Part shown: positions 41,348 to 45,531 of the stretch, in pieces | How the letters are laid out: each line of letters starts with the position of its first letter | Position numbering within the stretch: the first letter of the stretch is position 1 | Assembly: GCF_031851795.1 (NCBI RefSeq) | Contig: NZ_CP134696.1 | Span: 5,642,001 to 5,706,000, forward strand | Source: Pontibacter sp. G13 | GTDB lineage: Bacteria; Bacteroidota; Bacteroidia; J057 | Direction of reading: 5' to 3' | DNA length: 64,000 nucleotides | The notes under the pieces: generated by a model | The model's input: the letters and a program-made list of their open reading frames with translations, nothing else | Told to the model about the DNA's origin: nothing | The model's database searches: none | Translations under genes and position numbers: made by a program

Positions 41348-42202
41348 ATGAGAGGAAAATTTGAAAAGATCGAGCCGGTAGTTGCTCCCAATGAAGTGAA
41401 GAATCTGGAATATCTCCGATTTTCACCCAACGAAGCCGTAGCACCCACCCGGGAAGCTCGCCGCTTCTTGACATATTCTGTTCTGCACATCACTGAGGGA
41501 ACAGGAAATTTTGTGTTGGATGAGGAAGAATATGAAGTGAAGCCCAACACAGTATATTTCGCGTACCCAGGGCAGATATTGAATAACCGTCATTTTTACA
41601 ATGTGCGCGGCGTGCACATGTTCGCCAACCCTGATTTCTTTCTGGGTTGCAACGATGCATTCCCTGGGCTTACTGTCATGAATGCCCCTGAGCTGCGTCA
41701 TGAAATCCCGTTGTCCGTGGCTGAATCCAATTACCTGACGGATATTGGAACCCGGATTATGATTGAGCTAGAGAACGAGCGCCCCGTCAAATGGGACATC
41801 GTGAAGGCTTACATTTCTGTGTTCATGTTTTCTATGGAGCGGAAATTTGTCATGACGTACCAAGATGTTGCAGACAACAAATATCCTGAACTGGTTCGTA
41901 GGTTCTTCGCATTGCTGCGAATGAGCAACAACTACAACCAAAGCGTGGCTGAGATTGCGGAGAACCTGTATGTGTCTCCCAACTACCTGAATTCTGTGGT
42001 GAAAAAGCACACCAATAAAACGGTCAAGCAACACCTACAGGAACACATGCTACAGCAGGCAAGAAGCTTGTTGCTCAATACAGATCTTGGGATCAAGGAG
42101 TTGTCCTACATGCTTGGATTCAACTATCCACAGTACTTCAACCGCGCATTCAAAAAACTTACTGGCTATACGCCTCAAGGCTATCGTATGGCGATGGCAT
42201 AG
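41348..42202 (+). CDS. AraC family transcriptional regulator
   Basis: 284 residues. N-terminal cupin-like sensor (about 35-150: LTYSVLHITEGTGNFVLDEE, then EVKPNTVYFAYPGQ) and C-terminal double helix-turn-helix (about 190-284: IAENLYVSPNYLNSVVKKHT, then LSYMLGFNYPQYFNRAFKK). Stand-alone, with strong terminator 42222-42261. Regulon unknown; neighbours on the left are lipoproteins, on the right the repeat island. Confidence 0.93.
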   Translation: MRGKFEKIEPVVAPNEVKNLEYLRFSPNEAVAPTREARRFLTYSVLHITEGTGNFVLDEEEYEVKPNTVYFAYPGQILNNRHFYNVRGVHMFANPDFFLGCNDAFPGLTVMNAPELRHEIPLSVAESNYLTDIGTRIMIELENERPVKWDIVKAYISVFMFSMERKFVMTYQDVADNKYPELVRRFFALLRMSNNYNQSVAEIAENLYVSPNYLNSVVKKHTNKTVKQHLQEHMLQQARSLLLNTDLGIKELSYMLGFNYPQYFNRAFKKLTGYTPQGYRMAMA

Positions 42203-42261: not shown

Positions 42262-42377
42262 GAAATTCGAAATGTTAAAGATCTGTTATCGGTAGGGATA
42301 TTTCCATCTTCATACATTTAAAGTCGTATAATATGATGAACAAGAAATAGTAGCGTGTTTACCTCATGCGTAGATAC

Positions 42378-42431
42378 ATTTCATAGCGAGTTGAGAGGTT
42401 TGGGAAGGGAGTCATTTGACTCCCTTTTTTT
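42378..42431 (+). repeat. Promoter-abutted terminator-like element, copy 1
   Basis: TACATTTC (-7-like, 7 of 8, 42374-42381) lies directly before CATAGCGAG TTGAGAGGTTTGGGAAG, followed by hairpin GGGAGTC (42407-42413) / GACTCCC (42418-42424), loop ATTT, and T7. If transcribed it gives an RNA of only about 45 nt. Same unit recurs at 42551, 43391 (diverged) and 44648 (identical over 30 bases). Confidence 0.6.
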
Positions 42432-42550
42432 GTGTTGCGATTTTAATTTCGTAATGATGAATTATTTTTTTGATAGAAAGTATGCATTTGATTATTTGTA
42501 TTTACTATATTTGAGACACGATAGGGATGTAAGCATCCATGTCAAAGAAT

Positions 42551-42605
42551 TTTTTTTGCGAGTTGAGAGGTTTGGGAAGGGAGTCATACGACTCCCTTGT
42601 TTTTT
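42551..42605 (+). repeat. Promoter-abutted terminator-like element, copy 2
   Basis: GCGAGTTGAGAGGTTTGGGA shared with copies 1 and 4, then GGGAGTC (42579-42585) / GACTCCC (42590-42596), loop ATAC, T-rich tail. Upstream TTTTTTTG could act as the -7 box. Followed directly by the composite tail 42606-42668. Confidence 0.55.
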
Positions 42606-42668
42606 AGGAAGCTGTTTGGGCGGGCTTCTTTCTGCTGCAATCGCATATCTCCGGAACCTCAATTGGCC
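42606..42668 (+). repeat. Composite repeat tail, copy 1
   Basis: From GAAGCTGTTTGGGCGGGCTT to CTCAATTGGCC; matches 44701-44763 with about three differences, and follows a terminator-like element in both places. Its last 31 bases (CAATCGCATATCTCC to GGCC) are also the core of the tandem array 42827-43203. A reverse-oriented piece (AAGCTGCCCACCCAAGCAGC) lies near 42746-42772. Confidence 0.6.
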
Positions 42669-42826
42669 ATTTTTTCGGCCATAGCCCCACTATGCCCTGC
42701 AAAAATGGCTGCTTGAGAACCCGGATCTCTGCAATTTCGCGACGAAAGCTGCCCACCCAAGCAGCTTCTAATCTCCCTCCGCACGTCCTCTTGGTTTTGC
42801 TGGTACCAGGTTTCTTCTTTCTGCTA

Positions 42827-43203
42827 CAATCGCATATCTCCGGAACCTCAATTGGCCTCGGCGCCCACGAGGGGCTCCGCTACGGTATGTGTTTTCGCCA
42901 AATGGCTTTGTGGCTGCCCCGGTCCTAGGCATTCCACCTCATCCCACCGCAATCGCATATCTCCGGAACCTCAATTGGCCTCGGCGCCCGCGAGGGGCTC
43001 CGATACGGTATATGTTTTCCCCGAATGGCTTTGTAGGGGCATGGCTTTGTTGCTGCCCCGGTCCTAGGCATTCCACCTCATCCCACCGCAATCGCATATC
43101 TCCGGAACCTCAATTGGCCTCGGCGCCCACGAGGGCCCCGCTACGGTATGTGTTTTCGCCGAATGGCTTTGTAGGGGCATGGCCTTGTTGCTGCCCCGGT
43201 ATT
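42827..43203 (+). repeat. Three-unit tandem array, 124-138 bp period
   Basis: Core CAATCGCATATCTCCGGAAC at 42827, 42951 and 43089; each core is followed by CTCGGCGCCC(A/G)CGAGGG, a CTACGGTAT(G/A)TG stretch and TGCTGCCCCGGT. The second and third units carry an extra TAGGGGCATGGC segment. Open frames through the array (both strands) differ by unit and encode no family. Confidence 0.65.
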
Positions 43204-43390
43204 GACTGTCTCTCCTTCTGCTCAATGCCCCAAACCTAGGCCCCATTCCAGCTCCGAAGACATATATTCACATCCTCAGAAATGGCTTGGTAGAAATGTG
43301 CACCATCTGAGCGAATATGGGAACCAACCTTTTGGCGGATTGAGGGGATATTTGCAGGACATAGGAGAAAAGCACTCGATATTTGTAGCA

Positions 43391-43436
43391 AATTGAGAGG
43401 TTAGGGAAGGGGCTGTCGGCAGGCAACCCCTTTTTC
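43391..43436 (+). repeat. Promoter-abutted terminator-like element, copy 3 (diverged)
   Basis: AAATTGAGAGGTTAGGGAAG then a GGGG/CCCC hairpin with inner CTG-TCGG-CAG and T5. Upstream GATATTTG (43378-43385) fits the -7 box at 7 of 8. Stem sequence differs from copies 1, 2 and 4 but the position and lead sequence are the same. Confidence 0.5.
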
Positions 43437-43440
43437 CATG

Positions 43441-43625
43441 GGCATCCCCCGCTCTGGTGCGGTTGGCCCGCGGGGCGTGAAGTGGCTGGAGGGTGAGGCG
43501 TTGCCGAAGTCCCGGAGCTTGCGGAGGGACCGAGCGACTAGCGAGCCTGGAAGACGCTGACCCGGCGACCAACATGCCCCGAAAGCGATGGAATCTCCAG
43601 CACGCCGGGGCACGCCCAAATGCTC
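43441..43625 (+). repeat. Dispersed GC-rich intergenic repeat, copy 2
   Basis: GGGACCGAGCGACTAGCGAG (from 43526) and GGGGCACGCCCAAA (43607-43620) match copy 1; CAGCACGCCGGGG then GCCCAAATGC (43599-43623) matches 53481-53505. Lies upstream of xth and inside a false N-terminal extension of that ORF. Confidence 0.6.
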
Positions 43626-43774
43626 CGCTCCAAACTGAAGCTAGGGGTCCTCGCCTCCCAAGACTGAAATCTCCCCATTCAGATACCCTCAAGCGGCACA
43701 GAATGTGTATTTTGGCCGAAACCGAGTCGCTGTATCGGTGGACTCGCCTACATAATCTGTCAAACATACCATCA

Positions 43775-44536
43775 ATGAATATCACCTCTTGGAATGTCAA
43801 TGGGATTCGTGCGGTCGCGAAAAAGGGTTTTGCCGAATCCGTGGAATCGCTCGCGCCTGATGTGCTGTGCCTACAGGAATCCAAAGCGCAGGATGATCAG
43901 GTAAAAGAGGTCCTCGAAGGCTGGGACTACCATGTATATGCCAATTCTGCCGTTAGAAAGGGGTATTCCGGCACGGTCATTTTGTCCAAGTCCGAACCCA
44001 TAGCGGTGGAACTCGATCTGGGGATCGAAGAGCATGATCAAGAAGGTCGATTGATTGCGGCCGAATACGACGACTTCTTTCTGGTGAATACCTATGTGCC
44101 CAATTCGGGCCAAGGATTGAAGCGCCTCGATTATCGCAAGACGTGGGATGATGCGCTTCGTGCCTACTTGGAGAATCTCCGGAAGTCCAAACCTGTAATT
44201 CTTTGCGGTGATTTGAATGTTGCTCACCAAGCCATCGACCTAGCTCGTCCCAAACCCAATTACAACAAAACGGCCGGCTACACACAGACGGAAATCGATG
44301 GAATGGATGCCCTGCAATCTGCAGGATGGGTGGACAGTTTCCGCGCTAAATACCCCGAGGAGGTCAAATACTCTTGGTGGAGCTATCGTGGTGGCGCTCG
44401 GGAAAAGAATATCGGCTGGCGTCTAGACTATTTCATGGTAGATGAGGCATTGATGCCGAAAGTATCGGACTCCCTGATTCACAATGAGGTTTTGGGCTCA
44501 GACCACTGTCCCGTGGAGCTGATTTTGGAAGGATGA
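43775..44536 (+). CDS. xth: Exodeoxyribonuclease III
   Basis: 253 residues from the ATG at 43775, the normal Xth start MNITSWNVNGIRAV; the open frame upstream to 43493 is repeat DNA and gives no family sequence. Mg2+/catalytic motifs LCLQESK (E near 33), CGDLNVAHQ (D/N near 150-152), the NIGWRLDYF segment and the final GSDHCPV (D-H pair). AP endonuclease and 3'-5' exonuclease for base-excision repair. Flanked on both sides by repeats. Confidence 0.96.
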   Translation: MNITSWNVNGIRAVAKKGFAESVESLAPDVLCLQESKAQDDQVKEVLEGWDYHVYANSAVRKGYSGTVILSKSEPIAVELDLGIEEHDQEGRLIAAEYDDFFLVNTYVPNSGQGLKRLDYRKTWDDALRAYLENLRKSKPVILCGDLNVAHQAIDLARPKPNYNKTAGYTQTEIDGMDALQSAGWVDSFRAKYPEEVKYSWWSYRGGAREKNIGWRLDYFMVDEALMPKVSDSLIHNEVLGSDHCPVELILEG

Positions 44537-44647
44537 TCCGCTGATTTGGCATGTTCATCTCTTTGTATGCCTGTTTCGTGGGAAATTTACTCGCTGAATC
44601 TCAGGCACTACCGTAATACTAGAACCACTGAGAATAGTAGTAATACA

Positions 44648-44700
44648 TTTCATAGCGAGTTGAGAGGTTTGGGAAGGGAGTCTACGGACTCCCTTTTTTT
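44648..44700 (+). repeat. Promoter-abutted terminator-like element, copy 4
   Basis: TACATTTC (44645-44652) and 30 following bases are identical to copy 1; stem GGGAGTC (44676-44682) / GACTCCC (44687-44693), loop TACG, T7. About 110 bp after the xth stop, so it might also end the xth transcript. Confidence 0.6.
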
Positions 44701-44880
44701 ATGAAGCTGCTTGGGTGGGCTTCTTTCTGCTGCAATCGCATATCTCCGGAACCTCAATTGGCCAAAGAATGCCTGAGGCGCCCACGAGGGGCTCCGCTAC
44801 GGTATGTGGCTTCGTCGAATGGCTTTGTTGGGGCATGCCCTCGTGGCTGGCCCGATCCTAGGCGATACCTATCCTCCTGC
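44701..44880 (+). repeat. Composite repeat tail, copy 2, plus one array unit
   Basis: 44701-44763 repeats 42606-42668; 44764-44880 continues with a diverged array unit (GCGCCCACGAGGGGCTCCGC, then CTACGGTATGTGG). With copy 4 it accounts for the gap 44537-44907. Confidence 0.6.
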
Positions 44881-44907: not shown

Positions 44908-45531
44908 TTATGCTCCTTTTCGGATATTCCATTTTCGATTGAGGACCCACACGATGACTGGCCTCAGAAATTTGGGTGGGTAGCTATATCCCCACTTTGC
45001 GAGCATTTCGCCCATCCGATTGAAGGCGTGCTGGTCATTGAGCTTCTCTGCTCCCAATCCATCTACATACCGGTTGATCATGCAGAAGGCAGAAGCGATC
45101 AGGACGGTGTCATGAATCTCCTCTTCGGATGCTCCTGCGAATTGGGCTTGCTGGATATCAGTTTGGGATACATAATTGCCCCCTTGCTGCACAAGTCCAG
45201 CCAGATCCAGGAGGGCCTTCATTTTGGGCGAAAGTTGTTCCTTAGGTGCTGCGGGAGCGGTTTTACCGTTGGGAATCGCAGCTTTCTCTGGAGCGGGCTC
45301 GATTGGATTGGGATATTGGCAAGCAACGGCCGTATGCACGCGGTCGCAGAATTCGCACTCATTAAGGGCGGAAACATGTGCGGCGATCAATTCACGCTCC
45401 CGTTTGGAGAGCGGTGAAGGACCCTTCATCAGGGTTTGCATCAATTGGGAAATCGCCTTGCCGGAAGATCCTTTGTAGAACAACAACTCCACGATGCCGG
45501 GTTGTCGAACGCCCGTCTCGATATATGCCAT
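44908..45531 (-). CDS. AhpD-like peroxidase-related protein with an insertion
   Basis: 207 residues. CMD/AhpD fold with the CxxC-x3-H motif in ECEFCDRVH (about 59-67), as in peroxidase-related enzymes. A Pro/Ala-rich loop (about 74-96) is inserted between the two helical halves, which is unusual. Closest families act in peroxide defence or alkyl hydroperoxide reduction; this one stands alone. Start chosen at the ATG 45531. Confidence 0.85.
   Translation of the reverse strand: MAYIETGVRQPGIVELLFYKGSSGKAISQLMQTLMKGPSPLSKRERELIAAHVSALNECEFCDRVHTAVACQYPNPIEPAPEKAAIPNGKTAPAAPKEQLSPKMKALLDLAGLVQQGGNYVSQTDIQQAQFAGASEEEIHDTVLIASAFCMINRYVDGLGAEKLNDQHAFNRMGEMLAKWGYSYPPKFLRPVIVWVLNRKWNIRKGA

Follow-up and report, generated by a model that had tools for sequence, protein, structure and literature searches.

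A sixteen-copy family of predicted short RNA elements in the genome of Pontibacter sp. G13

The window analyzed here, a stretch of 64,000 nucleotides of the Pontibacter sp. G13 genome (contig NZ_CP134696.1, positions 5,642,001 to 5,706,000), carries four copies of an element in which a lead sequence is followed by a hairpin and a T tract, raising the question of whether these are duplicated terminators or genes for small RNAs. The lead GAGTTGAGAGGTTTGGGAAG occurs exactly at 42388, 42560, and 44657 on the plus strand and with three mismatches at 43390, in copy 3. Four matches in the window, against none in 100 dinucleotide shuffles, indicate that the four copies reported in an earlier note on this DNA are real. 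In window positions, they are the following.

Copy 1, 42382..42431, plus strand: lead CATAGCGAGTTGAGAGGTTTGGGAAG, hairpin at 42405-42426, loop ATTT, T tract.
Copy 2, 42558..42605, plus strand: lead GCGAGTTGAGAGGTTTGGGAAG, hairpin at 42577-42598, loop ATAC, T tract.
Copy 3, 43386..43435, plus strand: lead TAGCAAATTGAGAGGTTAGGGAAG, a different stem at 43407-43432, T tract.
Copy 4, 44651..44700, plus strand: lead CATAGCGAGTTGAGAGGTTTGGGAAG, hairpin at 44674-44695, loop TACG, T tract.

Stems and loops were as the earlier note had described them: copies 1, 2, and 4 have AAGGGAGTC-NNNN-GACTCCCTT with the loops listed above, and the stem of copy 3 differs yet still pairs, AAGGGGCTGTCGGCAGGCAACCCCTT at 43407-43432 folding as a hairpin with one mismatch. 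The start positions given there were up to ∼10 bases off, because counting had begun at the upstream box. Neighboring genes encode an AraC-type regulator (41348-42202), an Exo_endo_phos-family protein (43775-44536), and, on the minus strand, a carboxymuconolactone decarboxylase-family protein (44908-45531).

A covariance model was built from 12 copies and then run on the whole 7.67-Mb genome. It returned 16 strong matches, followed by a gap in E value from 2e-11 to 0.002; the window copies scored E values of 2.3e-21 (copy 1, C1:5684381-5684432), 1.5e-19 (copy 2), 2.8e-12 (copy 3), and 7.7e-21 (copy 4). Simple string searches agreed, with a 17-mer core found exactly at 13 places in the genome and the 22-mer lead AGCGAGTTGAGAGGTTTGGGAA, at up to three mismatches, giving 16 matches against none for the reversed control. 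Besides the four in the window, the copies are located as follows.

C1:1749910-1751361, minus strand: array of eight copies.
C1:5604762, plus strand: dispersed copy (unit A).
C1:5737633, plus strand: dispersed copy.
C1:6218136, minus strand: dispersed copy.
C3:60692, minus strand: copy on a 92,894-base contig.

Judged from the match positions, seven array copies are spaced 203 bp apart and the last lies at 182 bp; Tandem Repeats Finder described the array as 6.5 copies of 203 bp with 94% matches. The C3 contig carries a gene for a ParA-type ATPase and is therefore probably a plasmid. The elements are thus not restricted to one recently duplicated block, which the earlier note had named as grounds for dropping the RNA interpretation: 12 further copies lie elsewhere, one of them on another contig. 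Sibling RNA families are recognized by several homologous stand-alone units per genome, and here 16 were found. Rfam release 15, searched at the gathering threshold, gave no match at the copies, either in the window or in loci L031, L110, L111, L113, and L114. These comparisons point to a real multicopy RNA-like family, absent from Rfam and of a kind already known from gut Bacteroides. It most likely encodes short regulatory RNAs with one recognition stretch before the terminator, and we lean, with a little more than even confidence, toward the elements being genes of a lineage-specific multicopy sRNA family whose lead pairs with mRNA starts.

In an alignment of 12 representative copies, the lead, (A)GCGAGTTGAGAGGTTTGGGAAG, is the part that is kept, its columns being invariant or nearly so. 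The stem has been replaced in copy 3 and in the C3 copy, with the lead retained, and the loops constantly have 4 nt, including UACG and UUCG. Standard pairs account for 90.7% of the alignment cells, a value reached by 5 of 500 shuffles. Two pairs are altered on both sides, a count equaled in 41 of 500 shuffles; the compensatory change that the earlier note had proposed to look for thus has weak support. The hairpin and T tract of the aligned copies constitute a predicted intrinsic terminator at the end of each unit.

We surveyed terminator-like hairpins in 1,369,806 bases of the genome (60 sampled stretches, the window, and six neighborhoods, partly overlapping) and found 217 outside genes, 209 of them distinct. 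The core 8-mer lay upstream of 17, which are the 16 copies with one seen twice. Among the other 200, a single one had a loosely similar string, and this did not adjoin the hairpin. The lead is a family feature and not a general habit of terminators in this genome. The RNA-like element of the earlier note, a lead joined to a terminator hairpin and present several times, holds up. A separate terminator scan of the region (two found, against 2.9 in shuffles) listed only copies 1 and 2.

These results bear on the alternative that no regulatory RNA is made and that the elements are a REP/MITE-like terminator cassette, duplicated or mobile, which segmental duplication has spread and which is kept for ending transcription. 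In its favor, array units of 203 bp indicate active duplication, ∼65 nt of 3′ flank (alignment score, 118) is common to copies 2 and 4 and belongs to a local repeat, and copy 4, ∼115 nt after the gene at 43775-44536, could terminate its transcript. A terminator, however, requires no fixed 20-nt lead, and here the lead stays while stems change and is missing from all other 200 surveyed terminators. Several copies, inspected by eye, do not directly follow a gene on the same strand. We consider the cassette alternative unlikely. Mobile elements of the REP/MITE type would have sharp ends and terminal inverted repeats and be copied as a single unit; in the flanks, as inspected, the copies had no sharp 5′ end in common.

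Part of the history of the window copies can nevertheless be read from their flanks. The local repeat (window 42600-43207 and 44695-44863) contains a 30-nt exact core, AATCGCATATCTCCGGAACCTCAATTGGCC, five times; with up to three mismatches allowed, the rest of the genome had no further occurrence of this core, and the GC-rich units of the repeat share a CGAGGGGCTCCGCTACGGTATGTG string. Copies 1 and 4 have ATACATTTCATAGCGAG in common, and the alignment of their degenerate 5′ flanks was matched by 18 of 500 shuffles or, after the trimming of ten further bases, by 7 of 500. Copy 4 resembles a mosaic of copies 1 and 2, which recombination within the core would produce. The suggestion of a mobile terminator or larger repeat applies in part locally, to the repeat flank of copies 2 and 4, and fails for the family as a whole, in which the lead is kept while flanks and stems change; likewise, descent from one duplicated block holds in part for copies 1, 2, and 4 but not for the family.

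The working strand could in principle be the opposite one, where the hairpin, CTTCCCAAACCTCTCAACTCGCT, and an ATG would form the 5′ untranslated region of short peptides. On that strand, four of the 16 copies (copies 1 and 4 of the window, L013, and L019) read CTCGCTATGAAA. The ATG is missing from the other 12, however; the frames after it, read by eye, are short in all but one of the four cases and mutually unlike beyond the first residues; and the T tract comes after the hairpin on the lead strand. We regard this arrangement as very improbable.

If the elements are transcribed, the position of the promoter would set the length of the RNA. The earlier note had placed −7-like boxes within a few bases of each copy, and further candidates lie farther upstream.

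42375..42382, plus strand: TACATTTC, possible proximal box just upstream of copy 1.
42506..42513, plus strand: TATATTTG, candidate −7 box of copy 2, ending 49 nt before TTGAG.
Within 42550-42558, plus strand: TTTTTTTG, just upstream of copy 2.
43347..43354, plus strand: GATATTTG, distal candidate for the −7 box of copy 3, ending 38 nt before TTGAG.
43378-43385, plus strand: GATATTTG, possible proximal box of copy 3.
44644-44651, plus strand: TACATTTC, just upstream of copy 4.

Enrichment was assessed in 681 regions (669 distinct) upstream of called genes (946, 930 of them distinct). TAnnTTTG was seen 144 times against 55.2 expected (2.6-fold) and TAnnTTTC 80 times against 62.8, and TTG occurred at spacings of 19, 20, and 21 six, eight, and five times, respectively, against 2.9 expected each. 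This excess of TAnnTTTG and of the spaced TTG suggests that the genome employs the usual Bacteroidota promoter. A sigma-70 scan of the region showed no excess (3 against 2.4 expected), as is expected for this phylum. Among the individual boxes, TATATTTG was strongly enriched (22 against 3.2 expected); CATCTTTG (3 against 5.8) and CAnCTTTG (16 against 14.4), the octamer types of the distal boxes that ten copies share (see below), were not.

The proposal of ∼45-nt mini-RNAs that start at the lead from the proximal box fits two of these observations, in that TACATTTC (9 against 3.2 expected) and GATATTTG (10 against 4.0) are enriched upstream of genes and strong conservation starts just 5′ of the lead. 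The octamers are indeed present just upstream of the window copies, and proximal boxes are possible promoters, but they are not family-wide: a proximal box ending in TTTG is found only in copies 2 and 3 and is missing from 14 of 16. A TTTG box ends 38 to 42 nt before TTGAG in ten of the 16 copies (the array, L012, and copy 3), and an A-rich 5′ segment is common to the array copies and L012 and, loosely, L013. The distal boxes of these ten copies and of copy 2 would predict RNAs of ∼75 to 86 nt. We accordingly find the ∼45-nt form doubtful, still less probable than the cassette, and favor an RNA of ∼75 to 85 nt for the ten copies with a distal box.

The evidence for these promoters is mixed, above all in the case of copies 1 and 4 of the window. 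Since the ten copies share ancestry, their TTTG boxes are not ten independent events. A promoter matrix fitted by expectation-maximization gave uncorrected P values of 0.001 (L001), 0.024 to 0.085 (L002 to L007), 0.024 (L012), and 0.95 (L008), and for copy 3, 0.045 at the distal and 0.364 at the proximal box; during fitting the matrix moved away from a clean TAnnTTTG and its mixing weight stood at the cap, so these values are a guide only. It found no site with a P value below 0.18 in the six other copies and did not rank the TATATTTG site of copy 2.

How such RNAs would work can be proposed from their arrangement; what we infer concerns transcription, length, pairing, targets, and a protein partner. 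Transcription of each copy would begin at a promoter upstream, which in ten copies probably lies ∼40 nt before the conserved core, and would give an RNA of ∼75 to 85 nt with an A-rich, weakly structured 5′ part, a middle formed by the conserved single-stranded lead (AU)AGCGAGUUGAGAGGUUUGGGAAG, and a 3′ end in which a 4-nt-loop hairpin and U tract would stop transcription. The lead would be the working part, most likely base-pairing with mRNA start regions and reducing translation, as with GibS and FopS in Bacteroides, and copy number would set the dose. The partner may be the RRM_1 protein (C1:6456458), the only one of its kind in this genome, in which no match to Hfq was found.

Pairing was evaluated against 903 start regions from the ∼1.37 Mb of overlapping stretches (about 17 to 18% of the genome). 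The mean duplex energy was lower for the lead than for any of 120 shuffled leads. Over the 50 best duplexes, the mean was matched by 1 of 120 shuffles, and over the ten best by 13 of 120; the best single duplex was unremarkable (75 of 120 shuffles as low). In sets of 330 genes, 1, 2, and 1 of 90 shuffles were as low in upstream, coding, and post-stop control regions, respectively, and the excess of start regions over these controls was matched by 3, 1, and 1 of 90. Natural intergenic 24-mers of like composition reached the start-region excess in 143 (6-mers), 878 (7-mers), and 821 (8-mers) of 3,021 cases. A fixed start-codon register showed nothing (887 of 2,000 shuffles as high), and among the 6-mers before ATG the counts were only 2 for CTCGCT (0.32 expected), 3 for TCGCT (1.31 expected), and 8 for CGCT (4.44 expected). 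The lead thus pairs with starts better than shuffled leads do and not clearly better than natural controls, which lends slight support to a pairing drawn by analogy.

A more specific version of the sRNA reading is a dosage-amplified anti-start RNA, in which the lead would complement the start context CUUCCCAAACCUCUCAACUCGCUAUG and damp mRNAs with CUCGCU-AUG-like starts. In 12 of the 16 copies, the next triplet (CAU in four and UAU in eight) could form pairs with an in-register AUG. This version is a long shot; were it true, a whole set of mRNAs would be damped by an RNA amplified 16-fold in one lineage and present also on a likely plasmid.

The search for homologues by covariance model, as the earlier note had suggested, recovered the 16 copies in the genome itself and no convincing homologue in the sampled Bacteroidota. 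Among 12 other genomes of the same family (none of the same genus), 394 others of the class, and 394 others of the phylum, no convincing homologue was found, in sets from which the records closest to this genome may be absent; none of the 12 had the 20-mer at up to one mismatch. Model matches were obtained in 48 of 59 other genomes of a 60-genome search (E ≤ 0.1) and in 48 of 394 other genomes of the class sample (E ≤ 3e-4), and these were mostly to the hairpin only. Ten full-length class matches (model positions 1 to 52) were listed and all were read (G342, G390, G109, G296, G052, G276, G222, G346, G264, and G378); none has the lead directly followed by a hairpin, and on visual reading they are terminators of genes or chance matches. 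In the phylum sample, five other genomes had one three-mismatch match each, against 11 matches of the reversed control (hand count). Exact scans found one site in genome contigs, before an rplQ-like start in a Proteobacteria record, and two coding-looking sites in viral contigs, all unrelated by eye; phage and plasmid records had none. As far as could be tested, the family appears confined to this one genome.

A general rule that GGTTTGGGAAG precedes terminators was considered and rejected for want of overall enrichment. The string AGGTTTGGGAAG occurred 67 times in 59 other genomes, against 77 for the reversed control (hand count), and 36 against 20 in the 12 same-family genomes alone; of 30 loci, 7 were positive in a crude hairpin test, including some that are not terminators. 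The string directly precedes a terminator-like hairpin in three other members of the class (L145 in G047, L137 in G027, and L140 in G022), which, given the lack of overall enrichment, is probably chance.

Within the open-licence literature searched, multicopy sRNA families in Bacteroidota are described only for Bacteroides, and the nearest known family there is FopS. According to the available text, FopS of Bacteroides thetaiotaomicron is a paralogous family of 14 mostly intergenic members, with RNAs of ∼65 and ∼70 nt that share a seed (R1′) at the 5′ end and have a 3′ terminator, recognized by binding of the RRM protein RbpB and repression of SusC-type mRNAs (PMC11697453); FopS and GibS both pair with start regions (PMC11697453 and PMC7366714). 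As described there, FopS resembles the present family in being multicopy, mostly intergenic, and short (here predicted), with a shared stretch and a 3′ terminator (here predicted), and in its setting, a Bacteroidota genome with an RRM protein; here there is no match to Hfq. Unlike the FopS RNAs, which share their 5′ end, the elements share the stretch adjoining the terminator and vary in the 5′ part, and they include a tandem array; another difference is that the lead was not found in the class sample. The likeness is one of description; if transcribed, the present family may work like FopS-type families.

GibS (PMC7366714) has in common with the elements a long single-stranded seed and an intrinsic terminator (both predicted here); by contrast, its description is of one RNA, ∼145 nt in length, whose seed is at the 5′ end. 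LhrC1-5 of Listeria and other sibling sRNAs also have several homologous genes per genome, as far as their published descriptions go (PMC4132741 and PMC4211561). These belong to other phyla and are likewise compared by description. Some LhrC genes lie side by side in the genome, and LhrC and other sibling sRNAs are known from fewer copies than the family reported here. What the sequence itself shows is the number of copies, a lead that is kept while stems are exchanged, loops constant at 4 nt, and absence from the other genomes sampled. With its eight-copy array, dispersed copies with exchanged stems, and likely plasmid copy, in a single genome that has one RRM protein and in which Hfq has no match, the family would suit the study of how sRNA families arise and amplify.

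Other RNA-like and repeated sequences were observed in this genome. An Rfam match to RF01687 (Acido-Lenti-1) lies at L114:1952-1997 (C1:6211951-6211996) and scores 40.4 bits, the gathering score being 37. Between genes, a GC-rich repeat whose core reads (T)CCGGAGC..GCGGAGG lies at window 43450-43620 and near L012, L147, L228, L231, and L232; it was seen by eye near copy 3 and L012, and a strict pattern gave three copies in 1.37 Mb, none of them inside a called gene. At C1:5604600-5605400 (L110:9600-10400), three RNA-like units stand in a row before a tocopherol-cyclase-family gene. Unit A, the family copy at 5604762, is the only strong model match among them (unit C, E value of 0.002), and its lead makes up the 3′ arm of a further hairpin. 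Units B and C (C1:5605000-5605400), each consisting of a hairpin, a linker, and a terminator, look like related RNAs.
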